A DNA stretch of 33,433 nt from Phycisphaerae bacterium (lineage in GTDB: Bacteria; Planctomycetota; Phycisphaerae; UBA1845): the NCBI GenBank assembly GCA_030429365.1, contig JAUIEW010000022.1, forward strand, positions 1-33,433, in the 5' to 3' direction. Below, one piece after another: positions 1,327 through 21,074 of this stretch (its first letter is position 1; every line of letters begins with the position of its first letter). The translations under genes were made by a program, and so were the position numbers. Below the pieces are notes generated by a model. The model was given only the letters and a program-made list of their open reading frames with translations. It ran no database searches and had not been told where the DNA came from.

Positions 1327-1580
1327 TTACGGCGTCTGGCAGCCGGCGATCTGACCGTCGGGGCCAACCATGGCTTCGTAGGCGCCGTAGTCATTCACGT
1401 CGACGTCGCCATCGCCATCGGTATCGAAGCAGACGCAACCCGTCGCGTAGACCGGCGTGCCCGAACCGATGTCACCCGTGAAGCACTGCTGCATCAACAG
1501 GTAGTCCGCAAGGTCGATGTCGCAATCTTCATCGCCATCGCCAAACGTCGTCGCACAAACCGCACGGACGTCCGCGGCCT
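1327..1580 (-). pseudogene. Out-of-frame dockerin-like C-terminal tail of the giant secreted protein
   Basis: In the frame one base off from the giant gene the sequence reads ADVRAVCATTFGDGDEDCDI and continues into two EF-hand-like calcium loops (DGDEDCDIDLAD and DTDGDGDVDVNDYG) before ending GCQTP and a stop at 1327. Paired DxDxDGDVD loops of this kind form the usual C-terminal dockerin-like module of large secreted planctomycete proteins. It has no start codon of its own in a sensible place. The parent frame instead runs into unrelated Arg/Trp-rich sequence and stops at 1529. Removing one base within 1572-1582 (GC-rich CCGCGGCCTCC) would join the two frames as DTGGADVRAV. This is either a genuine frameshift mutation, a sequencing indel, or less likely programmed slippage. 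Confidence 0.8.
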
Positions 1581-4500
1581 CCGGTATCCGACAGGAACGC
1601 TTCGATGTTCGCATAGTCCTGCTGCGTGTATTCCGGATGCGCCCCACCGGGGTGATTGGTCGGTGGCGTCAACTTGTTCCAGATGAACACGCGCGAACGA
1701 TTGCGAATGTTCGGACCGGGCAGCGATCCGCCGCCCATGCCCGTCGGTCCGTGGCAACCGCTGCAGGTGTTAGCCAAGATGATTTGACCCTCTGCCGGAA
1801 TGCCCACCGGTCCGCCGTCGCAGTCGCTGCTGGTCGGGCCCTGGATGTCGCACTCGTCGGGCACGTCGTTGCTGTTGCAGTCAGCCGCGGACCCACCGGC
1901 GATTTCGTCGGCGTCTTCGATACCGTTTGAGTTGCAATCGGCGTCGAGTCCGCAGGGCGTCGTCACCGAAACGTTGTCGATCGCCATCTCGACAATGCTG
2001 CCCGCGCCCGAACCGTCAGCCGCACCAAAACGGAACTTCACCGTCGACGTGAGGCTGATGAAACTCTCAAGATCAAACGAGCGGGCGGTCCAACTGTTGG
2101 CGTCCGACTGATTGTCGATCGATTCCAACTCAACCCATGACGAACCGTTGTTGTCGGAAACCTCGGCCACATAGAAGTCGCCGCTGTCCGCACCGAGATC
2201 ACGCAGGTAGTACCAGCGAACGAATGAAAGATCGGCTTCGGTTTCACCGCTCAGGTCGATCGTCGGTGATTCGAGATAGACCACACCGCCGTCGATGTCA
2301 TCGGTCCCCAGCGCACCGCCCGGATTCTGACCGGTGAACAGACAACCCGTGCCTTCAAACGCATCTTCCGGCTGGGCAGGGTCGCCGCCGTTGGAAGTAC
2401 CGACCGGATCACCGATCACACCGTCGCCGGTCGATGCCGTCGAACCGGGTGCGTAGAGATTCCAGCCAGCAGCGTTACCGTTTTCAAAGTCGTCTTCGAA
2501 GAGGACGTCTTCGCAAACGATTGCCTGGCAACTCGCATCACAGGTGACGCCATCGGGCGGATCGCATTCTTCACTGCCTTCAACCACACCGTCACCGCAC
2601 ACCGTGCAAGGTCCGCCGTCGTTGGAAATGCTGACCGTACCGGAGCCCTGCTCGCCATCGTTCCAGCCGCCAATACGGATCAGGTATGAATTGCCCGCAA
2701 CAACTGGCGCGGTCAGCAGCGATGAGAACCCACCGCATCCCGCCCCGTCATCGTTGCACGCCAGAAAACTCAGATTGCCGCAATCGGTGTTGTCGTAGAT
2801 CACCAGATCGCTGTCGTAGTTGACCGTATCACACGTGCTGATTGTCAACGTTCCGCTGCATTCTGCGGTGTACTCGTACCAAATGTCGTGGTACGTCTGA
2901 CCACCGTCGCCAGAAACGACACACGAAGCATGAGCCGGCCCGTCCGTCGTCGCGCCAACCGTGCTGTATTCATGCACGCCATCGGTAATCGGCGGTGCAT
3001 CTTCGCAGTCGTCAGCCGTCTCGACCTGGCAGTTCTCGTCGCAACCGTCGCCCGGCGTCGTGTTGCCGTCGTCGCAACCTTCGCCACCGTCGAGATTTCC
3101 ATCACCACAAACACCTTCGAACTGGCAATTCTCATCGCAGCCGTCACCCGGTGTGGTGTTGCCGTCGTCACATTCTTCGCCGGTTTCGACGATGTTGTTA
3201 CCGCAAACGATGCCGGTGTCCGGCACAATCTTGTAAACGCTGCCAGCCGTGCTGACGACATACAACTCGCCATCGGCGTCTTCACCAAACGCCACCGGTG
3301 AACTGATCGAACCCAACTCAGCCGTTCGATTCACGCGATCGGTGATCGTCGAACCGTCGTAACGCAAGCTGAAAATCCAGTTGCCGCAGTAGTCGCCATA
3401 GAAGTAAGTGCCCTGCAAACCGGGCATCGCGCACCCGCGATACACGTATCCGCCGATGATGCTGCAAATGAAACCGGGGTGAATCGGATCGCCGCTGTGT
3501 CGCACGTCGAAGATCGGATCGGTCAACGTCGGGTCGCTGGCAACGCAGCCATACCCACCACTGCTCGTGGGCGTTGCGATCAAACCTTCGCGACAGTCCC
3601 AACCGTAGTTGACGCCACCGGCAGAACCAGCAGGCTCGAAGTTGATTTCTTCGCGTGCGTCCTGACCGACATCGGCGATGTACATATCGCCGGTCGTACG
3701 ATCAAAACTGAAACGCCACGGGTTGCGCAGGCCATACGCCCAGATTTCGTCGGCGAACGGATTGTCGACAGGGATATACGGCGCACCTGCATCGACATCG
3801 AGTCGCAGCATCTTGCCAAGCAAGGAACCAAGGTCCTGTGCACGGTTGTTGGGATCGTCGCCCGATCCACCGTCGCCCAACGCGACATACAACATGCCAT
3901 CCGGACCGAATGCAATTCCACCGCCGTTGTGATTTGAGAAGTCCTGTGTAATGGTTTTGATGATCACACCGCTGCCCGCGTCAGCGATGTTTGGATCGCC
4001 CGAAACGGTGTAGCGCGCGACGACCGTGTTGCCCGACGTGTTCGTGTAGTTCAGGAAGAAGTGACCGTTGCTGGCGTAATCCGGGTGGAAGGCCATCCCC
4101 AAGAGACCACGCTCACCACCGAAACTGATCAAGCCGCTGATATTGAGGAAAGGCGTGCCCAGCACCGAACCGTTTTCAATGATCTTGATCTGTCCGGAGT
4201 TTTGTTCGATCACGAACATCCGCGATGCATCGGTCGGATCGCCGAACACACCGACCGGCGTATCCAGTCCCGAAGCGATTTCGATCGTCGTCATCGGCAC
4301 GTCGGCAAACGTTTCGCATTCGTCGGGAATGGTGTTGCCATTGCAGTCGTTGCTGTCGCCGTTGGCGATGTCGATGGAGTCTTCAGTCCCGTTGGAGTTG
4401 CAGTCCTGCGGACCGGTGGCTGGCCCGGTCGTCGATGCCGTCACGCTGTTGGGGCTGCCCGGTTTGAAGATACCGAGCGTCACGTTGGTCGGCTGAGGTC

Positions 4501-6184
4501 CGACGTTGGCGTCAAAGCGGAAGTTGTACATCGTGCCCCAGCGAATCGCGTTGGCGTCGGCATTGGTCGCGAAGGTTTCGGTTGACCAGGTGACGTTGCC
4601 GCCAATTTTCGACCCGGGCCAATCCAAGTCGCTGTACGGCTCGCCACTGTGATAGTCAACGTCCCTGAAACCGATGTTGGTAACGACCGCACCCGAATCG
4701 ATCGGCACGGTAAACGAACCGATCGAGCGATCGGAGTTAAGGTTTTGCACGGCGTATTCATAATGCCAGATGCCACCGCCCAGCGACGTGGCTTTCGCGG
4801 CGAGAATCACCAGACCTTCACCGGGAACGCGTACATCCGTTTCCACGACCGAAGCGTCGTTGTCCTGCCAGGCGCGAATACCCGACTGCTCGCGCTGCGT
4901 GGATGACGCCAGCGAGATCGACCAACTGCTTCCGCTTCCCGAAACCGTCACTTCACGATACGACGCGTTGTTGTCCTGGTTGCCAGCCGCTGCGTCGTCT
5001 TGCGTTACATAATGTCCCTCAACGAAGTAAGTACCGCCGCCATCCTGTGCCGGATCGAGATCGGAGATCGCCACCTGCAATCGTTTGTACGTCGAATCGC
5101 CGGTCGAACCCTGGTCACCATGCGTAAACGGATAATTGAAAATACCGGTGTGGGCGTTGACTTCCGAGCGCGGGCCGAGTCCCGACTGCTGGCCGTTAAG
5201 TCCGCAGCAATACGGATCTGAACAACCGACGCCCAGCACACTACCGCCCTGTCCATTGCATCCGCACCCGCAGATATTTTCGGTGAGCGCGGTGAATCCG
5301 TGCTTGAGCCAGCTCTGACCGATCTGCTCGAGGCGTCCGTCTTTGAGACGATACATGTTCTGGCCGATGACCGGATGCTGGTTGGTATTCGCAATCCACA
5401 GAAGATTCTGATCGCCAATGTTGCAGGAATTTGTCCCGACCGCGAACGCTTCAATGCCGCCCAGGCTGCTGTAGTTCGAAACATCCAGCAGGTCACCGAC
5501 AATCACATCAACGCCCGGCAACCCGCAAACCGTCCCGCCATTGCCGCCGCGAACAGCCGCATCTTCATTGCCGCGACGAAACTCGTCCGGCACATCACCG
5601 CCCGACCACGACAACGCGGCTTGGATCGTAAAGGACCCGATCACCTTGCCAGCCAGCGACGCATCATCAAGCGCCTCCGCCAACTCACGACCGATGCTGA
5701 TCTCGGCGCCTTCAAACAAAATCTGTTCGCCTTCCTGGTCGAAGCCAACCTTGGTGGCCGAGAGAACCAATCCGCTGCGCCGACCGGACGCATCGGTTGT
5801 CACCAGCGCCGATCCGAACAATCCGTCGGGAAGTTCGATGGCCAGATCCTCCAGCGTAGCCTCGCGATGTTTCGTGAAAATTCGCAATCCGCCGCCGTGG
5901 CGAATCTGTCCGGCATCGTTGTTCGACAAACCGGCGCGGGATTCGATCAACGTTAGATTCGATCGCGCGTCCACATCGAGCCATACATTGTTGTCCTGAT
6001 GCGATGCGCCGCTGCGATCGATTACCGCAACGCCCAGACCGATCTCATTCAGCGCCGTTACATCAAATGAAAGCTTGGTGGTCCCGTGGGTGACCGTCCA
6101 CTCCACGTCGGCGCTGGCGGTGTGCACCAAGCCCAATGCGCCAATCAGAACAGCCATTGCCCGAATCATGCCCGTTGGTTTCAT
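1529..6184 (-). CDS. Giant secreted multidomain protein: PQQ sugar dehydrogenase-like propeller, Cys-rich repeats, cytochrome c (frameshifted at 3' end)
   Basis: Translation from the ATG at 6184 (AAGGAG five bases upstream; an in-frame GTG at 6187 is too close to it) gives 1551 residues. Domains in order: signal peptide 1-25; a long beta-rich region to about 590; a DCNSNG/DCNGN calcium-type spacer 594-623; a soluble glucose/sorbosone dehydrogenase propeller about 630-990 (GERGLLGMAFHPDY with the conserved His near 700, NHNGGGIAFGPDG, YGLRNPWRFSFD); two near-identical Myxococcus-type disulfide repeats 994-1055 (EECDDGNTTPGDGCDENCQ); a pre-peptidase-like beta domain to about 1190; a third Cys repeat; a jelly-roll region 1226-1408; a second calcium spacer; and a cytochrome c motif CSGCH at 1474-1478. 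The likely role is extracellular or periplasmic sugar or aldehyde oxidation passing electrons to its own heme. This is inferred from domains, and the substrate is unknown. The C-terminus is disrupted (see the tail entry). Confidence 0.88.
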   Translation of the reverse strand: MKPTGMIRAMAVLIGALGLVHTASADVEWTVTHGTTKLSFDVTALNEIGLGVAVIDRSGASHQDNNVWLDVDARSNLTLIESRAGLSNNDAGQIRHGGGLRIFTKHREATLEDLAIELPDGLFGSALVTTDASGRRSGLVLSATKVGFDQEGEQILFEGAEISIGRELAEALDDASLAGKVIGSFTIQAALSWSGGDVPDEFRRGNEDAAVRGGNGGTVCGLPGVDVIVGDLLDVSNYSSLGGIEAFAVGTNSCNIGDQNLLWIANTNQHPVIGQNMYRLKDGRLEQIGQSWLKHGFTALTENICGCGCNGQGGSVLGVGCSDPYCCGLNGQQSGLGPRSEVNAHTGIFNYPFTHGDQGSTGDSTYKRLQVAISDLDPAQDGGGTYFVEGHYVTQDDAAAGNQDNNASYREVTVSGSGSSWSISLASSTQREQSGIRAWQDNDASVVETDVRVPGEGLVILAAKATSLGGGIWHYEYAVQNLNSDRSIGSFTVPIDSGAVVTNIGFRDVDYHSGEPYSDLDWPGSKIGGNVTWSTETFATNADANAIRWGTMYNFRFDANVGPQPTNVTLGIFKPGSPNSVTASTTGPATGPQDCNSNGTEDSIDIANGDSNDCNGNTIPDECETFADVPMTTIEIASGLDTPVGVFGDPTDASRMFVIEQNSGQIKIIENGSVLGTPFLNISGLISFGGERGLLGMAFHPDYASNGHFFLNYTNTSGNTVVARYTVSGDPNIADAGSGVIIKTITQDFSNHNGGGIAFGPDGMLYVALGDGGSGDDPNNRAQDLGSLLGKMLRLDVDAGAPYIPVDNPFADEIWAYGLRNPWRFSFDRTTGDMYIADVGQDAREEINFEPAGSAGGVNYGWDCREGLIATPTSSGGYGCVASDPTLTDPIFDVRHSGDPIHPGFICSIIGGYVYRGCAMPGLQGTYFYGDYCGNWIFSLRYDGSTITDRVNRTAELGSISSPVAFGEDADGELYVVSTAGSVYKIVPDTGIVCGNNIVETGEECDDGNTTPGDGCDENCQFEGVCGDGNLDGGEGCDDGNTTPGDGCDENCQVETADDCEDAPPITDGVHEYSTVGATTDGPAHASCVVSGDGGQTYHDIWYEYTAECSGTLTISTCDTVNYDSDLVIYDNTDCGNLSFLACNDDGAGCGGFSSLLTAPVVAGNSYLIRIGGWNDGEQGSGTVSISNDGGPCTVCGDGVVEGSEECDPPDGVTCDASCQAIVCEDVLFEDDFENGNAAGWNLYAPGSTASTGDGVIGDPVGTSNGGDPAQPEDAFEGTGCLFTGQNPGGALGTDDIDGGVVYLESPTIDLSGETEADLSFVRWYYLRDLGADSGDFYVAEVSDNNGSSWVELESIDNQSDANSWTARSFDLESFISLTSTVKFRFGAADGSGAGSIVEMAIDNVSVTTPCGLDADCNSNGIEDADEIAGGSAADCNSNDVPDECDIQGPTSSDCDGGPVGIPAEGQIILANTCSGCHGPTGMGGGSLPGPNIRNRSRVFIWNKLTPPTNHPGGAHPEYTQQDYANIEAFLSDTGGRGRPCGLCDDVWRWR

Positions 6185-6649
6185 CACGTCTCCTTCAATA
6201 CCGTTTCACGTATGACAAGCGCATCGCCCATGCAAGGGTGCCACGTCAAGTCACGCAACATCGACTGATTCACTGCCCAAAGATTGGATATGCTAAGAAT
6301 TGGAACGTTGCTGCAGATCGGTTTGATTGCGTCGGCTGGCTCTGCCCGAGTCATGCAAACCAGAGCAAAACCACACACACGTACCCGGCAACAATCCCCT
6401 CCTCGGATCACTTCACATTAGCGGGTTGAAATCGGCGATACAAGCGCGACTTTCGGTGACATCAAGCGATAGTTGACGTGGCCACACCCTGGAAACACGC
6501 ACGATAAACCGCGGACAGAAGATCAGCCCGCAGCGTTGTTTTGAATTGCTTGCGCCCCGCTCGAAGGTTGCGTCTTGGCACGCGAACACGCCGTTCTCGG
6601 GAAACCCCCGACGTTTCTGGACGCGAAAACCGCCATCCGGCAAAAACGT
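6185..6649. other. Gene-free stretch between divergent genes
   Basis: About 465 bases lie between the start of the giant secreted gene and the promoter of the J-domain gene. Short open frames on both strands have no recognisable motifs, ribosome sites or codon character. The minus-strand leader next to 6184 holds the clear AAGGAG site. No good -35/-10 pair for the giant gene was found by eye, and no RNA gene or repeat was recognised. Confidence 0.5.
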
Positions 6650-7395: not shown

Positions 7396-8352
7396 ATGAC
7401 CGAACAGACCATGCAAGCCCCCGCACGCCAAGCCGAATCGCCCGAAGTTCACCCGCAGTCTGAAGTCACAAAGTGGGAAGCGTTTTCGTTTGCATCGATG
7501 CGTTTGTTTCTGGGTGGGCTGCTGCGTGTCGTCGGGCTTGGCGGACTCTATCACCTGTCGCGCGGGTTTGGCGGACTCGAATACCTCATCGATTACAAAC
7601 GCCGGCGGCGCGTCGGCAAAATGCAGTCCATCGTCTTCGATGACAGCACCCCCAAACGCGTTCGCCGCAAATGGGTTTGCGAGCAGTTCATGCGCGCCCG
7701 CTGTGACAAGGTCTTCTATCTGATCTTCGACCTGCTACCCAAAGAGAAGTTGGCCGACTGTTTCGAAATCGTCAATCGCGACATCCTCGATGCCGCGCTG
7801 GTACGCGGCAAGGGTGTGTACGCCATGACGTCGCATATCGGTTCCGGTCACGTCATCGGAATGCTCATGTCGTTTATGGGCTATCGCGTCTCGGGTGTGC
7901 GCAGCCCCAAGGAAGGCAACATCCGCCGATACATGCAGAGTAAATGGGCGGAGAAATATCCCGACCATCCGCCCATCACCCTGTTGTATACCGGCCACTT
8001 CCCCCGACCGATTTATCGATTGTTCAAAGACAACTTCATCCTCGGCAGTTCGTCGGATGTCTCAAAGATTCCCGATAAGAAGATGCGAACCATACCGGTC
8101 AAACTGTTCGGGCATGAACTTGAATTTCTGCTCGGGCCGCTGCTCATCGCGATTCGCTGCAAAGCCACCGTGCTCCAGGCATTCACGCTGAGTTCGCCCG
8201 GATTCAAGTATCGCATCGAATTCCTCGGGCCACTGACCGACCCCGACTCGGGCGACGAATCACCCGAACTGCTGGCCAAGGTCATGCAACAGTACGCCGA
8301 CAACATCGCCGAGTACGCCCGCAAGTATCCCGATCACATCACCAAGCGCTAG
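7396..8352 (+). CDS. LpxL/HtrB-like lysophospholipid or lipid A acyltransferase family protein
   Basis: The 318-residue length and layout match the LpxL/LpxM (HtrB) family of membrane-bound acyltransferases that add secondary acyl chains to lipid A or related lipids. It has a polar N-terminus, a hydrophobic segment near 35-55 ([20 protein letters not shown]), and the signature region [20 protein letters not shown] at 140-159. In the family the catalytic pair is HxxxxE or HxxxxD. Here H147 is kept but the acidic partner position is H152, so activity or chemistry may differ. Later features include [10 protein letters not shown] and a C-terminal [15 protein letters not shown] helix typical of the family. 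It is monocistronic and convergent with katA; the two stop codons share a CTAG. A role in outer-membrane lipid assembly is likely, with the exact acceptor unknown. Confidence 0.75.
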
Positions 8353-9800
8353 TTGCCCTTGCAACGCTTCAGCGCTTCGCGGACGCCGTCGGCATACGCG
8401 GGATCGATCTTTTCGAAATGCCCCAACTGCCGCTCGACGATTTCATCGGACACGTCGGCCATCGCTTCGGCGAGGTTTGAAAACAACCGCCCCTTCTGAT
8501 CGGCATCGAACAAATTGAACAGTGCCCGAGGTTGGCTGTAGTCGTCATTGCCTTCGCGGTGGTTGTAGCGATCCGCATCACCCGAGATTTTCAACGGCGG
8601 TTCTGCCGCTTCCGGCTGCTCAACAGGGCCACCAAACGAGTTGGGCTCGTAGTACGCGTCGGCGTTCTCAGCGTTCGGGAAGAACCGCATCGCGCCGTCT
8701 TTGTGGTAGTGGTGCACCGGGCACTTCGGCGCGTTGACCGGCAGCGCCTCGTAGTGCGTACCGAGACGATAACGATGGGCGTCGGCGTAGGAGAAAATCC
8801 GAGCTTGGAGCATCTTGTCCGGTGAGAAACCGATACCGGGCACGATGTTCGACGGCGAGAATGCGGCTTGCTCAATGTCGGTGAAGTAGTTTTCGGGGTT
8901 GCGATTCAACTCCATCACGCCAACATCGATGAGCGGATACTCACCGTGGGGCCAAATCTTCGTGAGGTCAAACGGGTTGTACGATGTCTTTTCCGCGTCG
9001 GTTTCTGGCATGATCTGCACGCAAAAGCGCCACTTGGGATAGTCGCCGCGCTCGATCGCCGAATACAGATCTTCCTGCGTGGACTCACGCGTCTTGCCGA
9101 CAACCTCTGCGGCTTCCGCGTTGGTCCAGTGCTTGTGACCCTGCATCGTTTTGAAATGGAACTTCACCCAGAAGCGTTCGTTCTTGGCGTTGATGAAGCT
9201 ATACGTGTGGCTGCCATATCCGTTGATGTTTCGCACGCCCACCGGCAGACCGCGATCCGAAAAGAGAATCGTGACCTGGTGCAGTGATTCGGGCGACTGT
9301 GACCAGAAATCCCACATCGCCGTCGTCGAGCGCAGGTTCGTTTTCGGATGACGCTTCTGCGTGTGAATGAAGTCAGGGAACTTGTACGCGTCGCGAATGA
9401 AGAACACGGGCGTGTTGTTGCCCACCATGTCCCAGTTGCCGTCGTCGGTGTAGAACTTCAAGGCGAAGCCGCGCACGTCGCGCTCGGCATCTGCCGCGCC
9501 CAACTCGCCCGCCACCGTCGAAAACCGCGCGAGCATGTCGATCTCTTTGCCCACCTCGGCGAACACCTTGGCCTTCGAGTACTTGGTGATGTCGTGTGTG
9601 ATCTTAAGCTTTCCAAACGCCCCCCAACCCTTGGCGTGTACCACCCGCTCGGGGATGCGCTCGCGATTCTGATGGGCGAGTTTCTCGAGCAGTTGATAGT
9701 CCTGCATGAGCACCGGTCCGCGCGCACCAGCCGTCATCGAGTTCTGGTTGTCAGAGACCGGCGCACCAGCCGTCGTCGTCAGTTTGGGATTCTTGGACAT
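8349..9800 (-). CDS. katA: Monofunctional heme catalase
   Basis: A 483-residue small-subunit (clade 3 type) catalase that converts hydrogen peroxide to water and oxygen. The signature residues are all present: distal His55 in [10 protein letters not shown], Asn128 in [11 protein letters not shown], and the proximal heme ligand Tyr338 with Arg334 in [14 protein letters not shown]. The conserved [16 protein letters not shown] segment ([17 protein letters not shown]) is also present. The ATG at 9800 is preferred because AAGGAG lies eight bases before it; an in-frame GTG at 9809 overlaps that ribosome site. It is transcribed divergently from oxyR, and the shared intergenic region carries an OxyR box, so peroxide induction is expected. 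The protein has no signal peptide and should be cytoplasmic. It converges on the acyltransferase gene with overlapping stops. Confidence 0.96.
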
Positions 9801-9903
9801 CTGCGTCACTCCTTGTTGCGAGCGTTCCTATTCAATGGCACAAACCCGTCAGCGCAATTCGTGATTGCGGCTTGACGGACGAATCTTTTTGATTTCGTTA
9901 GAG

Positions 9904-9932
9904 ATCTTAACCCTCGAATTGCTATAATCCAA
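9904..9932 (-). promoter_or_regulatory. katA promoter next to the OxyR box
   Basis: On the minus strand, TTGGAT (9932-9927) and TAAGAT (9909-9904) are separated by 17 bp. Both hexamers are imperfect, as expected for an activator-dependent promoter. The -35 abuts the OxyR box at 9933, the usual geometry for OxyR contact with RNA polymerase. The leader would be about 97 bases. Confidence 0.55.
9923..9928 (+). promoter_or_regulatory. Consensus -10 box for oxyR
   Basis: A perfect TATAAT with no convincing -35. Transcription would start near 9935, so the OxyR box would cover the start site and leader, fitting autorepression as known for E. coli oxyR. Confidence 0.5.
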
Positions 9933-9969
9933 AGACATAGTATCTATTGGATTGATAGGGATAGCCTAT
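9933..9969. promoter_or_regulatory. OxyR binding site (ATAG-N7-CTAT type)
   Basis: The established OxyR consensus is ATAG-N7-CTAT-N7-ATAG-N7-CTAT. Here CTAT (9944-9947), ATAG (9955-9958) and CTAT (9966-9969) are perfect with exact seven-base gaps. The first quarter-site at 9933-9936 is AGAC, matching two of four bases. The last half-site overlaps the oxyR ATG (9968-9970). Confidence 0.8.
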
Positions 9970-10846
9970 GGAATTGCACCAACTGCGATATTTCGTCACG
10001 GTGGCTGACAAAGGGGGATTTACGAGGGCAGCAGAGGCCTGTTTCGTATCCCAGCCGTCGCTTAGCCAGCAGATCATCAAGCTCGAACGCGAGTTGGGGC
10101 ACCGCCTTTTTGACCGCCTGGGACGAACCGTGAAGCTCACAGAAGCCGGTCACGCGGCTTACGCCCACGCCATCGCCATCCTTCGCTCCGTCGACGAAAT
10201 CGAAGACAGCGTCATCGCCGCCACCGCGCCGGAAAAAGGCACCATCACCATCGGCGCAATCCCGACCATCGCCCCCTACCTCATGCCAGCGATCATCAAA
10301 CGATTTGCCAAAACCTATCCCGAATCGGTCATCTCGATCCACGAGGACCTGACAGCCGAAACCGAACGACGCTGTGCCGTTGGCGAAATCGACATTGGCA
10401 TCATCGCCACACTGCCAGCCAACAACGCCCTGCGCAGTCAGGAATTGTTCACCGAAGAAATGCTGCTCGCGCTGCCGCCAAAGCATCGCCTTGCGAACAA
10501 GAAACGGATCGGCTTGGAAGATGTTGCCGAAGAACCGTTCGTGCTCATGAACGAGTTGCACTGTCTCGGCGAACAGGTGGTGGGCTTCTGCCACAAGCAA
10601 GGCTGTCTGCCAGTCGTGCGCTGCGTCGGCGTACAGCTTCTGACCATTCAGCAACTCGTTGCATTGGGGCGCGGCGTATCGCTCATCCCCGCGATGGCCG
10701 CCCAGGCCGACAAACGCTGCGCCTACCGATCACTGACCGCGCCGAAACCGCAGCGCACGATTCGCATGATCTGGCACAAGGATCGCTATCAATCTCAACT
10801 GGTTCGGGCGTTCTTGGACGTACTGGCCCGATTCGGAAATGTGTAA
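9968..10846 (+). CDS. oxyR: OxyR-type peroxide-sensing LysR-family regulator
   Basis: A 292-residue LysR-type regulator. The N-terminal winged helix (1-60; FTRAAEACFVSQPSLSQQI) is followed by a linker helix and a periplasmic-binding-like effector domain from about residue 91. Both redox cysteines of E. coli OxyR are present at the same numbers, C199 and C208, in HCLGEQVVGFC, and the IPTIAPYLMP segment matches OxyR's IPTVGPYLLP. It should sense hydrogen peroxide through a C199-C208 disulfide and activate the divergent katA. AGGGA lies six bases before the ATG and inside the OxyR box. The gene ends directly against the convergent diguanylate cyclase gene: stops at 10844-10846 and 10847-10849 with no gap. 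Symbol based on the cysteine pair and context. Confidence 0.93.
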   Translation: MELHQLRYFVTVADKGGFTRAAEACFVSQPSLSQQIIKLERELGHRLFDRLGRTVKLTEAGHAAYAHAIAILRSVDEIEDSVIAATAPEKGTITIGAIPTIAPYLMPAIIKRFAKTYPESVISIHEDLTAETERRCAVGEIDIGIIATLPANNALRSQELFTEEMLLALPPKHRLANKKRIGLEDVAEEPFVLMNELHCLGEQVVGFCHKQGCLPVVRCVGVQLLTIQQLVALGRGVSLIPAMAAQADKRCAYRSLTAPKPQRTIRMIWHKDRYQSQLVRAFLDVLARFGNV

Positions 10847-15005: not shown

Positions 15006-15172
15006 TCCACAGGCCAAACAACCCGCTGCCACTTGCCACGCGCCTGAATCTCCTCGCCCCCATTGAGCCTCCCCCCCAAAAATCGTTAGGATGGCTTACC
15101 GTTGGAATGGAGAAGCTGGTGAGCGTAGGCTAGACAATGCGCCGCCATCCGCGAATCACCCAGGGCAGCAGA

Positions 15173-15880
15173 ATGAGCAAGCGGCATGACTACGTAGACG
15201 ATGCGCTGGAGGACAAGCTGCGCATTGGCGAAACAATCCTATGGGTCTACGGGTGTTTGCTGGTGCTCGCAGGCGGTGGTTTTGTGATCGCCAAATGCCT
15301 CGTCGCAGAGTTCGGCGCGGCGTTCGTCGGGTTCGTCGCCACGATCACGGGCGGCGTATTGATTGCCCTTTGCTGGCTGGTATCGCGCATGCTGCGGACC
15401 GTGCGATCAAACGTCTTTCGCATCGAACGGTTGAAGCAGCGTATCGACGAGTTGGAACTGGAATTCGACGCGGGCATGTCGGGCATCGCACCGACCCAGC
15501 CAGCGCTATCCGCCGACGAACCCTTGGATACCGAAAGCGAAAAAGAATTGTTTCGTTTCGAGCATGCCTTGTCGTTTCGCGACATCGAGACCTGCCGCCA
15601 ACTCTGGCCCATCGTCAAGGAATCGGTCGATGAAGATCGAGCCAGCCAGTACGAAGCCGCCCTCGCCGACATGGAACACCAGGCAGCCGAAACCCTGCGA
15701 AGCGAATTCGCCGTCCAACTGCGCGAACACGACTACGCCACCGCGCTGCAAACCGGTCAACGCATCGCGGAGTTGTTTCCGACCAGTCGGATGTCATCCG
15801 ATTTCAAAGCGATTCGCGAGCGCGTCGAATCGCTGGCCCAAACAATCAGGAACGAAAACAATCATTCGGGCCAGCAGTAA
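15173..15880 (+). CDS. Membrane protein with coiled-coil cytoplasmic region, function unknown
   Basis: About 235 residues from the ATG at 15173 (MSKRHDYVDD); an upstream in-frame ATG at 15137 would add 12 residues, and neither has a strong ribosome site. Two adjacent hydrophobic helices (about residues 22-45 and 50-75, including FVGFVATITGGVLIALCWLV) form a hairpin. A basic, heptad-like stretch follows (RTVRSNVFRIERLKQRIDEL), then a largely helical acidic C-terminal half with TPR-like composition (ALSFRDIETCRQLWPIV, YATALQTGQRIAELFPTS). The last part resembles planctomycete proteins with a short tetratricopeptide-like tail, but I do not recognise a named family. Probably an inner-membrane protein with a cytoplasmic helical domain. 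Confidence 0.65.
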   Translation: MSKRHDYVDDALEDKLRIGETILWVYGCLLVLAGGGFVIAKCLVAEFGAAFVGFVATITGGVLIALCWLVSRMLRTVRSNVFRIERLKQRIDELELEFDAGMSGIAPTQPALSADEPLDTESEKELFRFEHALSFRDIETCRQLWPIVKESVDEDRASQYEAALADMEHQAAETLRSEFAVQLREHDYATALQTGQRIAELFPTSRMSSDFKAIRERVESLAQTIRNENNHSGQQ

Positions 15881-15932: not shown

Positions 15933-17420
15933 CTATTCTGACGCCGCCCCCGATCCCGACAGGAATCCGACGATCGTATCGATGAACTTGCGGTTCTCTT
16001 CGACATAAGGGAAGTGACCGCTTTGCTCGAAGACTGCCAGCTTCGCGCCGGGGATGCCGTCGGCGATGGTCTTGGCGATGGGCGGCGGTGTGATCAAATC
16101 GAATTTGCCGGAGATGACCAACGTTGGGATACCGGTGATCTTGGACAGTTCCGGACGCAGATCCACCGTGCGGAAAACCTCTTTGTCCATCACGATGTTG
16201 ACGAACGAACTGACTTCAGCGTGTCGAAGCCAATCTTTGCGGAAAGCGTCGTCCACTTCGCCAAAGAAAATTCCCGGCAATTGCAAACCGACCAGCGCCA
16301 TCAACTCCCGATCGTTGGGCCCGCGCATTGCCTTGCGCAATTCGCCGATCAGCCAGTCGTATTTCTCGTGGTCGGACTCGGCCATCACCGACACCAATAG
16401 CGGAATGTACTTTTGAAACTCTTCCGCACTCGCCCAACCCGACACCAACACCATCTTGTCAACGCGATCGGGATACGCGAGGGCATACTTCATCGCAATC
16501 AGGCTCCCGCTCGATTGGGCAATCAGCGAAATCTTTTCATCCTCAGCCACCTCGCGAAGCGCCTCCAACTCGTCGGCTTGTCGCTGGAGCGTGTACGCCT
16601 CGGCGAATTGCGGTTTGCTTGACCCACCGCATCCGACCTGATCGTAATAGACCAACTTGTTCGTCTTCGAGATTTCGTCGAGGTAGGGTCGAAACATCTT
16701 GTGCGATTCACCGGGCCCACCGTGGATCACGTAGACTGGCGAACCTTCGCCCATCAACCTCACGTTGAGGGACTGCGCACCAATGTTGGCTGTCGTTTGT
16801 TTCGCGTGCAGATCGTTGTCTGCAATGGGCATCGCCTTGACCTTGGGCAACTCATCCAACTCCGACACCAACAGTTTCATGTCCTTGTAGAAACCCGGCA
16901 GCTTGGTTGGCGAAAATCCACCTTCGACCGCTTCATTGAGCGCGTCGGCAAAACTCCACCCGTCCACAATCACACGATGGGCAAACCGCATGAACCCAGC
17001 GCGATCGCGTCCTGACTGACAGTGAACGTATACCGTGCCATCGGTCGTCGCCCGGATTTCGTCGATGATGCTCCGCGCCACATCGCGATTGACGCGGGCT
17101 TTGTCGAGCGGCCCATCAAGCCCGATGGCCAACGGTCTGCTCTCAAACGCAACGCCCAAGTCCTTCGCGATCGCGGATTCTTCTTCCACCTCGGCAGACG
17201 GATCGAGCAGGCTGATCACCTTGGTGATGCCGCGCGACCGAGCCAGGAACGCAAGGTCTGCACGACTCGGCGCTCCACCGCATACCATATGATCCGAAAG
17301 CTTCGAAAGTTTGAGACGCTTTTCGAAGCGGGCAATCTCTGCATCGTCGCCGCGCAGGTCGGCAGAGATCAAAAGAACGATCGCCATGAACAGTCCGGCG
17401 GTCAGTTTGGGGGCAGACAT
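15933..17420 (-). CDS. Exported fusion of dual-specificity-type phosphatase and alpha/beta hydrolase
   Basis: A 495-residue protein with an N-terminal signal peptide (1-24). Residues about 28-190 form a cysteine phosphatase domain with the P-loop HCQSGRDR (His133, Cys134, Arg140), as in dual-specificity or tyrosine phosphatases. Residues about 215-490 form an alpha/beta hydrolase of the proline iminopeptidase type: oxyanion motif HGGPG 233-237, nucleophile Ser303 in IAQSSGS, Asp441 in ISGKFDLITP and His469 in QSGHFPYVE. All catalytic residues of both halves are present. The natural substrates are unknown; peptide or ester hydrolysis and phosphate removal outside the cytoplasm are inferred. 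AAGGAG lies nine bases before the ATG. Convergent with the coiled-coil membrane gene and divergent from the nfeD operon. The fusion is unusual. Confidence 0.88.
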   Translation of the reverse strand: MSAPKLTAGLFMAIVLLISADLRGDDAEIARFEKRLKLSKLSDHMVCGGAPSRADLAFLARSRGITKVISLLDPSAEVEEESAIAKDLGVAFESRPLAIGLDGPLDKARVNRDVARSIIDEIRATTDGTVYVHCQSGRDRAGFMRFAHRVIVDGWSFADALNEAVEGGFSPTKLPGFYKDMKLLVSELDELPKVKAMPIADNDLHAKQTTANIGAQSLNVRLMGEGSPVYVIHGGPGESHKMFRPYLDEISKTNKLVYYDQVGCGGSSKPQFAEAYTLQRQADELEALREVAEDEKISLIAQSSGSLIAMKYALAYPDRVDKMVLVSGWASAEEFQKYIPLLVSVMAESDHEKYDWLIGELRKAMRGPNDRELMALVGLQLPGIFFGEVDDAFRKDWLRHAEVSSFVNIVMDKEVFRTVDLRPELSKITGIPTLVISGKFDLITPPPIAKTIADGIPGAKLAVFEQSGHFPYVEENRKFIDTIVGFLSGSGAASE

Positions 17421-17646: not shown

Positions 17647-17772
17647 TACATTGGGTTATTAGCTCGCCCGAAGTACGACGACACTTCAACGAATTCGACG
17701 GACGATGGTTGGGTGCTGAGGAGGGCAGCCTGATCACTAAGGCCTTCCCAAAGCATGCTCAAGAGGACGATC

Positions 17773-19470
17773 ATGAACCGTTACAAACTCTTAAAGATCA
17801 ATCAAATGGGTGGGTTGGCGTCGATTGTTGCGATCTGCGCGGGCGTTTTCATCAGCCCCGCAACCGGTGCCTCCTCTAACAGCAAGTCCAGAGATGGCAA
17901 GGCAGAAGATACGTCAGCAGCCTTGATCGAAAAAGAGGCTGCAATCAAAGGCACCGCACCGACCGAGACATTCAAGAACGGTTTCATCATCCCGATCCGC
18001 GGTGAAATCAACGACGTCATGTTCGAGAGCCTTGAGCGCCGCATCGAAACAGCCAAGCAAGCCGACGCCAAGCTCATTATCTTCGAGATGGACACGCCCG
18101 GCGGCGCGGTTCACAGTGCCCTGGACATTTGCGACCTCATCAAATCGCTGACGGAGATCAAGACCGTCGCGTGGGTTCACACCGAAGCGTACTCGGCTGG
18201 CTCGATGATCTCGCTCGCCTGCGACGAGATCGTCATGAGCACGGCCTCCACGATCGGCGACTGCGGTGTGATCCTCGGCGGTCCGACCGGTCCCTCGGAA
18301 GTCCCGGAAGAACTTCGTGCCAAAGCGGAAAGCCCGGTGATCGAAGAGTTTCGCGACTCGGCCAACCGTCGCGATTATGACCTTCTGTTGTGTGAGTCGA
18401 TGGTCGTCAAGGAGCGCGTGGTCTACTGGATCGAAAACATCCACACGGGCAAGCGCAAGTTCGTCGACGAACAGCAGAAGATTCAACTCGTCGGCGGAAA
18501 GATCGACGAAGACTCCTTTGCGACATCCGACGGCAACGAAAAAGAGTACGAATGGAAATTGGTCACGTCCTATTCGGACATCGTTACCGGCAAAGATATC
18601 AAAATCACCCAACCCGTCGTGCCCGCCACCGAACTGTTGACCATGCGGCAGAGCAAAGCCGCCGCTTTCGGTTTCTGCAAAGCGATCTGCTCAAGCCAGA
18701 CTGACTTGAAGATTCGTTACAACGTCGACGAAGCGCTCACCATGTTGACATCCAACTGGTCGGAGCGTTTCACCAGTTGGCTCACATCGATGCCGGTGCG
18801 CATCTTCCTGTTGGCGCTGTTGCTGCTTGGAGCTTATGTCGAATTCCATACGCCGGGCGTCGGGGTAGCCGGTTTGGTATCGCTGATCTGCCTGGTGATC
18901 TTCGTCGGTGCACCGTACATGACCGGCTTGGCGAACGTATGGGAAATCGTGATCGTCTTCATCGGGTTCGCGCTGATTGCGTTGGAAGTGTTCGTCATTC
19001 CCGGATTCGGCGTCGCGGGCATCAGCGGTATGCTCTGCGTGGTGGTTGGCCTATTGGCGACGTTCGTCCCCGAAGAACCTGGGCGGACGCTGCCCATCTA
19101 TTGGCCGCAATTCGAACCGGGCCTGCAGGGTTTGAAAATCGGCGTGACCACGCTCGGGTCGGCGCTGGGGGCGTCGATTCTTGGCATGATCATGATCAGC
19201 CGCATGCTCCCGCATATCAGTTGGCTGCACGGTGCGATGCCGCTCAACCCGACAGCGGATGAGGTTGGTATCGTCGATCCTTACAACGGTTATGCACGCG
19301 AAGGCGACGTTGGTGTGGTCGAGTCGCCGTTGCGACCGGCTGGCAAAGTTAGATTTGGAAACATGCTGGTCGACGTGGTCACCCAAGGCATGTTCGTCGA
19401 TCCAGGCACAGAAGTCGAAGTTTGCGAACGTCAGGGCAACCGCGTTGTGGTTCGCCCGATTCAAGCATAG
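17773..19470 (+). CDS. NfeD-family membrane-bound serine protease (ClpP/SppA-class)
   Basis: A 565-residue protein. Signal peptide or anchor 1-33; ClpP-class protease domain about 68-200 (FIIPIRGEIND, MDTPGGAV) with probable nucleophile Ser141 in AYSAGSMISLACDEIVM and probable general-base Lys184. A charged insertion spans about 200-290. Several membrane helices lie at about 340-480 (IFLLALLLLGAYVEFHTPG, the typical NfeD turn), and a C-terminal NfeD OB-fold (VGIVDPYNGYAREGDVGVVE) ends the protein. NfeD proteases of this class cleave hydrophobic stretches of membrane proteins such as stomatin or flotillin relatives. AGAGGA five bases before ATG 17773 makes this start better than the ATG at 17755. 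First gene of an operon with the short NfeD and FloA. Confidence 0.9.
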   Translation: MNRYKLLKINQMGGLASIVAICAGVFISPATGASSNSKSRDGKAEDTSAALIEKEAAIKGTAPTETFKNGFIIPIRGEINDVMFESLERRIETAKQADAKLIIFEMDTPGGAVHSALDICDLIKSLTEIKTVAWVHTEAYSAGSMISLACDEIVMSTASTIGDCGVILGGPTGPSEVPEELRAKAESPVIEEFRDSANRRDYDLLLCESMVVKERVVYWIENIHTGKRKFVDEQQKIQLVGGKIDEDSFATSDGNEKEYEWKLVTSYSDIVTGKDIKITQPVVPATELLTMRQSKAAAFGFCKAICSSQTDLKIRYNVDEALTMLTSNWSERFTSWLTSMPVRIFLLALLLLGAYVEFHTPGVGVAGLVSLICLVIFVGAPYMTGLANVWEIVIVFIGFALIALEVFVIPGFGVAGISGMLCVVVGLLATFVPEEPGRTLPIYWPQFEPGLQGLKIGVTTLGSALGASILGMIMISRMLPHISWLHGAMPLNPTADEVGIVDPYNGYAREGDVGVVESPLRPAGKVRFGNMLVDVVTQGMFVDPGTEVEVCERQGNRVVVRPIQA

Positions 19471-19483
19471 AGGCGCGTGTTCA

Positions 19484-19981
19484 ATGGACTCGGTGGGCGC
19501 GATTGTATTGCTGTACCTCGCTGGTGTCGTGTTGATCACGGCGGAGTTGGTGTTGCCGTCGCATGGTCTGCTGACGATCGGATCGCTCGTGTGTTTTGGC
19601 TTGGCGGTCTTCGCGACGTTTGGCCACAACCGCACGCTTGGTGCAGTCGCAGCCGTCGGTTGCGTCGTGTTCGTGCCGACGATGCTCTTTTTGGGTATCA
19701 AGTTTGTGACGTACCTTCCGCTGGGCAATCAATTCGCGCCGCCCAATCCCACGCGCGAAGAAGCTGGCCCCGCGTTTGATCGCAGCGAATGCGAACAGTT
19801 TGTCGGCGTGAGCGGTAGAGCCGTCACCCCGCTGCGACCCATCGGTATTTGTGAGTTCAACGGACGACGCGTACAATGCGTTTCCGAATCCGGAATGATC
19901 GATGTCGGGCAACCCGTCAGTGGTGTCGGTCTTCAAATGAATACGCTTGAGGTTCGACTGGACGAATCCCAGCCGGCCTAA
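19484..19981 (+). CDS. Short NfeD-like membrane protein
   Basis: A 165-residue protein starting at ATG 19484, 13 bp after the protease gene. Two or three hydrophobic helices occupy about residues 5-75 ([20 protein letters not shown] at the start). The C-terminal soluble part (about 105-160; [30 protein letters not shown]) is the NfeD OB-fold. This is the truncated NfeD form without a protease domain that is commonly paired with a flotillin gene. It probably docks on FloA at the inner membrane. The position between the full-length protease and floA matches the known nfeD-floA pairing. The frame is open further upstream to 19232, but that overlaps the protease gene and is not coding. Confidence 0.85.
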
Positions 19982-20018
19982 CCAAGCTACAATCGAAGCA
20001 TATCGAAAGGATCAAGCA

Positions 20019-21074
20019 ATGATTCTAGGCATGAATACGCCGTCAACCCTTATGTCACCACTGCTGGCCAACACCGGCTACTGGATCATCGGTGGCTTCG
20101 TGATCCTTGTATTGCTTGTCTTTTTCTTCTTTATCCTGAACGTGCTTAGCCTCTGGATTCAGGCGCAGCTGACCCGCGCACGGGTCGGTTTGCTCGACCT
20201 GGTGACCATGCGCTTTCGAAAAGTCAATCCAGCGACGATCGTGAATAACAAGATCACGCTGGTCAAAGCCGGTTTGACCGACACGACCACAGAGCAGCTT
20301 GAAAGTCATTATCTTGCTGGCGGTCGCGTGCCCAACGTCTGCAAAGCGATGATCGCTGCCGACCGCGCCAAGATCGATCTCGACTGGCGGACCTGCACCG
20401 CGATCGACCTCGCGGGCCGCGATATTCTCGACGCGGTCCACACCAGCGTGAATCCCAAGGTCATCGACTGCCCGAGTCCGCAGTCGGGCAAGACCACGAT
20501 CGATGCCGTCGCGATGGATGGTATTCAGCTTCGCGCCCGTGCCCGCGTGACCGTGCGAACCAACATCGCCCAACTCGTCGGTGGTGCGACCGAAGACACG
20601 ATCATCGCCCGCGTCGGTGAAGGCATCGTCAGCGCGATCGGCTCGTCGACCACGCACGCCGAAGTGCTTGCCAACCCCGATCGCATCAGTAAAGCCGTGC
20701 TCGCCCGCGCCCTCGATGCCGGTACCGCTTACGAAATCCTATCCATCGACATCGCCGACGTGGACGTCGGTGCAAACATCGGGTCGCGCTTGCAAGCCGA
20801 CCAAGCCGAAGCAGACACCAAGCGTTTCAAAGCAGAAGCCGAAAAGCGCCGCGCGATGGCCGTCGCCCTCGAACAGGAAAACAAAGCCAAGATCCAGGAA
20901 AACCGTTCGCTCGTCGTCCTCGCAGAAGCCGAAGTCCCGCGGGCGATCGCTGAATCATTCCGCAGCGGCAACCTCGGCATCATGGACTACTACCGCATGC
21001 GCAACATCGAGTCCGACACCAGCATGAGAAACTCGATCGGCGGAAATGACGCTGGCAACAAGCCAAGCGCATAA
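20019..21074 (+). CDS. floA: Flotillin-like protein FloA
   Basis: A 351-residue protein. One N-terminal hydrophobic hairpin (about residues 20-48, with [20 protein letters not shown]) anchors it to the membrane, followed by the SPFH-like domain ([57 protein letters not shown]). An Ala/Glu/Lys-rich helical stretch follows ([20 protein letters not shown]). FloA proteins form oligomers in functional membrane microdomains and influence membrane fluidity and protein assembly. AAAGGA seven bases before ATG 20019 sets the start; the frame is open from 19947, but that overlaps the NfeD gene. Third gene of the nfeD operon. Palindromic repeats follow directly after the stop. Confidence 0.93.

Follow-up and report, generated by a model that had tools for sequence, protein, structure and literature searches.

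A fusion of a DSP-type phosphatase and an S33-like alpha/beta hydrolase found in one genus of Phycisphaerae

A gene on contig JAUIEW010000022.1 of a Phycisphaerae bacterium joins sequences resembling two unrelated enzymes, which raises the question of whether the fusion is a genuine gene and, if so, what its two halves do together. Within the 33,433-nucleotide stretch of DNA analyzed here (the window), the gene occupies positions 15933-17420 on the minus strand, as do all of its features given below. It is a single uninterrupted open reading frame of 495 amino acids that runs from ATG to stop without an internal stop codon. The predicted product is a DSP-type phosphatase followed by an S33-like alpha/beta hydrolase and is probably exported. 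Its N-terminus, MSAPKLTAGLFMAIVLLISADLRGDD, looks like a Sec signal when judged by eye, and this segment (residues 1-25; 17346-17420) keeps its hydrophobic character in each of the five orthologs while evolving under relaxed constraint. The reading that we favor, with slightly less than even confidence, is that of an exported protein whose two active sites share a substrate or a place.

A sequence-only reading of the window had described the product as an exported cysteine phosphatase fused to a proline-iminopeptidase (PIP)-like hydrolase, and had considered that the fusion might be an assembly artefact. The description is supported by the open frame, the residues, the domain matches and the orthologs, with export predicted from the N-terminus. 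The catalytic residues that it had named were found in HCQSGRDRAG (Cys134/Arg140), AQSSG (Ser303), GKFDL (Asp441) and SGHFP (His469). Further, the full-length fusion was present in all five genus genomes sampled (the window genome and four others from separate assemblies), with 65-86% identity and in the same gene neighborhood, and this agreement rules out an artefact of assembly. Cys134, Asp139, Arg140, Ser303, Asp441 and His469 did not vary among the five fusions. The pN/pS of the orthologs was 0.10-0.30 in the DSP half and 0.13-0.30 in the hydrolase half, with synonymous sites almost saturated between the most divergent pairs. It was higher in the signal segment (0.50-0.66) than in both halves, and the linker exceeded both halves in three of four comparisons. 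Both halves are thus under purifying selection and, because the protein is also conserved at full length, the fusion is a maintained gene. One of the contigs that carry it (L033; JANQQE010000024.1; 72% identity, with the gene order of the window) is titled 'Alphaproteobacteria bacterium isolate IP29b_bin.190'. It seems to be identical with contig G004:C1, a member of the window's genus by grouping, and the title looks wrong.

We searched for the fusion beyond these genomes. With a fusion profile, the full-length protein was confined to the genus among 114 genomes of the order, and the other 109 matched one half. No fusion was detected at 1e-30 in 391 further genomes of the phylum, in each of which the best three candidates were scored. 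These absences led us to reject an older fusion common to the family or order. Eleven other long frames that appeared to join a DSP and a hydrolase proved, on reading, to be read-through of non-coding sequence before a separate DSP. Phyla outside Planctomycetota were covered solely by a pattern scan that detects close relatives, and no plasmid or phage record covered 80% of the fusion protein. A shallow literature search found no published description of such a fusion and nothing usable on Swiss-Army-Knife phosphatases. As far as searched, the protein is therefore a new domain architecture of known families that is limited to one genus.

Each half nevertheless has separate relatives. Matches to the DSP half occurred in 45 of 150 relatives (the genus itself included) and in 59 of 392 genomes of the phylum. 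In the window's own genome, the sole match to the phosphatase half was the fusion itself; two members of the genus possess an extra, separate TpbA-like gene (HCHHG[SA]DRTG) with a lipoprotein-like start. We aligned 44 separate exported or anchored DSPs of Planctomycetota, which comprise the same domain as the first half of the fusion but have no second domain and no adjacent hydrolase gene. Across 48 DSP loci and 25 hydrolase loci with flanks of about 1.5 kb, the two were never neighbors; an origin from an earlier gene pair was rejected for this reason, and the loci give no independent sign of a shared substrate. The same lack of adjacency would fit a chance joining of two unrelated exported enzymes, kept for the sake of single export and expression while each retained its own substrates. 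Both domain types occur as separate genes in the order, often with a hydrophobic N-terminus, and the linker between the halves (residues 193-215) is poorly conserved, as might be expected in that case. Against such a joining, every member of the genus has retained the fusion, down to 65% identity, and no re-splitting was seen. We consider chance joining possible but on the whole unlikely.

The first half (about residues 27-192; 16845-17342) scored below the gathering thresholds of Pfam for DSPc (20.0 vs 33.5 bits) and PTP-SAK (21.9 vs 27 bits), and the phosphatase half alone fell just below that of Y_phosphatase3 (21.4 vs 22.2 bits). A profile of the five orthologs matched TpbA (4r0s) with an E-value of 4.2e-7, the best sequence match among solved structures. 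The predicted fold of this half (pLDDT 83) matched PTP/DSP structures at Z 15-17, including TpbA at Z 15.5 over 149 residues (rmsd 2.9). The profile match and the predicted fold together confirm the assignment of this half as a putative DSP with the PTP/DSP fold. Its P-loop, HCQSGRDR (residues 133-140; 17001-17024), contains Cys134, Asp139 and Arg140 and is invariant in the five fusions. His133, Cys134, Gly137 and Arg140 are also invariant in the 44 separate relatives, and the CX5R arrangement of DSPs, formed by Cys134 and Arg140, is thus found in all of these proteins. In Pseudomonas aeruginosa, TpbA (PA3885) is a dual-specificity tyrosine phosphatase located in the periplasm, and it removes phosphate from peptides derived from the periplasmic domain of TpbB (PMC4409338). 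The fusion resembles it in the PTP/DSP fold, the HCxxGxxR P-loop, the RxG...R...GW region that follows and, by prediction, export. In contrast to the fusion, TpbA is a single-domain protein of 218 amino acids with the P-loop HCKHGNNR.

The two proteins may also differ in the general acid. In TpbA, whose HCKHGNNR loop contains Cys132 and Arg138, this acid is probably Asp105, the D105A substitution costing 53% of catalytic efficiency (PMC4409338). In the fusion, the corresponding acid-loop segment is residues 102-108 (DGPLDKA in the window; 17097-17117), and the HMMER alignment with 4r0s, which in this loop is uncertain by a few residues, places Ala108 at the position of Asp105. One ortholog has Asn in place of Asp102, and each of the five has either Asp or Glu at position 106. 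Within this segment or immediately ahead of it, the fusions fill about seven alignment columns that are gaps in all 44 separate relatives, many of which also lack Asp at the TpbA Asp105 position. An acid may come from the P-loop instead, as in MptpB-type atypical lipid phosphatases, whose signature HCXXGKDR[TA]G supplies its own catalytic Asp (PMC3091653). HCQSGRDRAG of the fusion fits all positions of this signature except the defining Lys, which is Arg; strict membership of the MptpB family was rejected on this account, and the Y_phosphatase3 match, as noted, is below the cut-off. Because the P-loop Asp is catalytic in MptpB-type enzymes and Asp139 is invariant in the fusions, Asp139 is the most plausible general acid, with residue 106 as an alternative candidate. 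The separate DSPs have Asp (17 of 44) or Asn (16 of 44) before the P-loop Arg and differ in their acid loops, and possibly represent two catalytic types.

The claim that the phosphatase half keeps complete catalytic residues accordingly holds for Cys134 and Arg140, which are invariant, but apparently not for the acid of TpbA, as Asp105 aligns with Ala108 and Asp102 varies. Without a canonical acid aligned at the TpbA position and with a variable Asp102, phosphatase activity could be weak. The half might even serve as a phospho-binding domain of little or no activity, whose role would be to sense a phosphorylated ligand and to regulate or position the serine hydrolase. Ala108, the Asn at position 102 in one ortholog and the extra acid-loop residues absent from the 44 relatives would suit such a sensor. 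However, Cys134 and Arg140 never vary, which is the pattern of active enzymes, and the invariant Asp139 could act as the acid in the MptpB manner, which makes a purely sensory role somewhat more doubtful than chance joining.

The second half (about residues 216-490; 15951-16775) was assigned to the S33-type alpha/beta hydrolases on the basis of PF00561, TIGR01250 and structure matches. PF00561 matched at 2.1e-24, well over the cut-off. The match of the window protein to TIGR01250 had an E-value of 2.6e-38, yet reached 132-135 bits vs a curated cut-off of 167.65. The modeled core resembled PIP (factor F1) and esterases at a structural Z of about 20-21; the whole-protein model has a pLDDT of 65 and its hydrolase cap is unreliable. 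The likeness to tricorn interacting factor F1 (1mt3; Z about 20.7), a member of the S33 PIP family, extends to the HGGPG and DQ.G.G.S motifs and the Ser/Asp/His triad, and the general features of PIPs (alpha/beta hydrolase fold, triad and HGGPG) are thus all present. The oxyanion-hole motif HGGPG (residues 233-237; 16710-16724) and the nucleophile elbow AQSSG with Ser303 (16506-16520) are invariant in the five fusions. The same holds for Asp441 (16098-16100), whose aligned counterpart in factor F1 is the Asp of GEYDEVTP, and for His469 (16014-16016), which aligns with the factor F1 His.

Factor F1 binds the N-terminus of its substrate through Glu213, which lies in the cap motif GPxE[FY], and Glu245; PDB titles list the two among active-site mutants. 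All five fusions lack GPxE[FY], which an annotated PIP from Enterococcus and one planctomycete relative possess. The position of Glu245 is occupied by Leu442 in the fusion and likewise by Leu in the Enterococcus PIP, so the loss of GPxE[FY] alone is telling. The fusion further departs from the PIP family in its elbow, which starts with Ala. The second half is therefore closest to PIP-type hydrolases by sequence, but a peptidase label is not supported, given the TIGR01250 score below the cut-off and the missing GPxE[FY]. The peptide-cleaving role suggested by the sequence-only reading is likewise not supported and appears less likely than hydrolysis of an ester, lactone or amide.

The fusion gene forms a single transcription unit. 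A gene encoding a small putative membrane protein (15137-15880) converges on it, an NfeD gene (17755-19470) diverges from it, and its neighbors have no evident link or pathway to it. The NfeD1b-like protease/membrane protein gene and the adjoining gene for the flotillin FloA (17755-21074) were linked in 13 of 13 sister-genus loci examined. There, neither the fusion gene nor the other neighbors were found to have a counterpart, so the place of the gene is a feature of the genus. A link of the fusion gene to NfeD-FloA was rejected, since the pair persists in sister genera that lack the fusion gene while the other neighbors change. Elsewhere in the window, positions 1529-6187 (minus strand) encode a 1552-amino-acid protein with a glucose/sorbosone dehydrogenase domain, DUF4215 and a galactose-binding-like domain. 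Genes for a catalase and a LysR-type regulator (8349-10846) lie between two conserved neighbors; in a comparison of L032-L034, the catalase was present in L034 and neither gene was at that place in L033, and the module thus appears to be variably present among members of the genus.

A functional link to a GGDEF gene 3.8 kb from the fusion gene was also rejected, as its product has no obvious membrane segment. A TpbA-like envelope signaling phosphatase that acts on a membrane protein, while the hydrolase degrades a linked signal such as a lactone, is very improbable: no solved structure is closer in sequence than TpbA, the hydrolase resembles an enzyme that degrades acyl-homoserine lactones (5egn, Z 19.8, one match among many) and a GGDEF gene is near, but the GGDEF protein has no obvious exported domain either, the whole gene block is conserved in the genus so that proximity says little, and the hydrolase match reflects the fold in general.

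We return to the exported two-site enzyme, a reading in which we infer that the protein is exported, that each site is active and that the two share a substrate. In the mechanism proposed, the TpbA-like domain would remove phosphate through a thiophosphate intermediate on Cys134, with Arg140 holding the phosphate and the general acid probably supplied by the P-loop Asp139. Cleavage of an ester, lactone or amide would fall to the S33-like serine hydrolase (Ser303/Asp441/His469). Most likely, both sites would work in the cell envelope or periplasm and be tethered because they serve a common compound or location, for example in the scavenging of a phosphorylated ester or lipid-derived molecule. 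This reading is supported by the full-length orthologs in all five genomes, the five invariant catalytic residues and the low pN/pS of both halves. The periplasmic location of TpbA and the hydrophobic N-termini of several related hydrolases and DSPs in related genomes are consistent with export, the near-match of the P-loop to HCXXGKDR[TA]G suggests activity, and the modeled likeness of the hydrolase to esterases and PIP points the same way. The apparent lack of the canonical acid at the TpbA position and the variable Asp102 may count against it, and the absence of a pathway gene beside the fusion gene counts against a shared substrate. That both sites serve one substrate is conjecture prompted solely by their fusion, and the two-step breakdown that the sequence-only reading had raised is possible. 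In its strongest form, a genus-specific envelope enzyme would remove phosphate from and cleave an ester or lactone in one compound, a compact and so far undescribed pathway that handles a phosphorylated ester or signal; we regard this form as a long shot.

The fusion joins two very common but largely unassigned classes of exported enzymes in Planctomycetota and thereby gives a direct way to approach their substrates. Should one compound require both sites, the fusion would identify a pathway that applies to the separate genes as well; otherwise it would be a lineage-specific curiosity.
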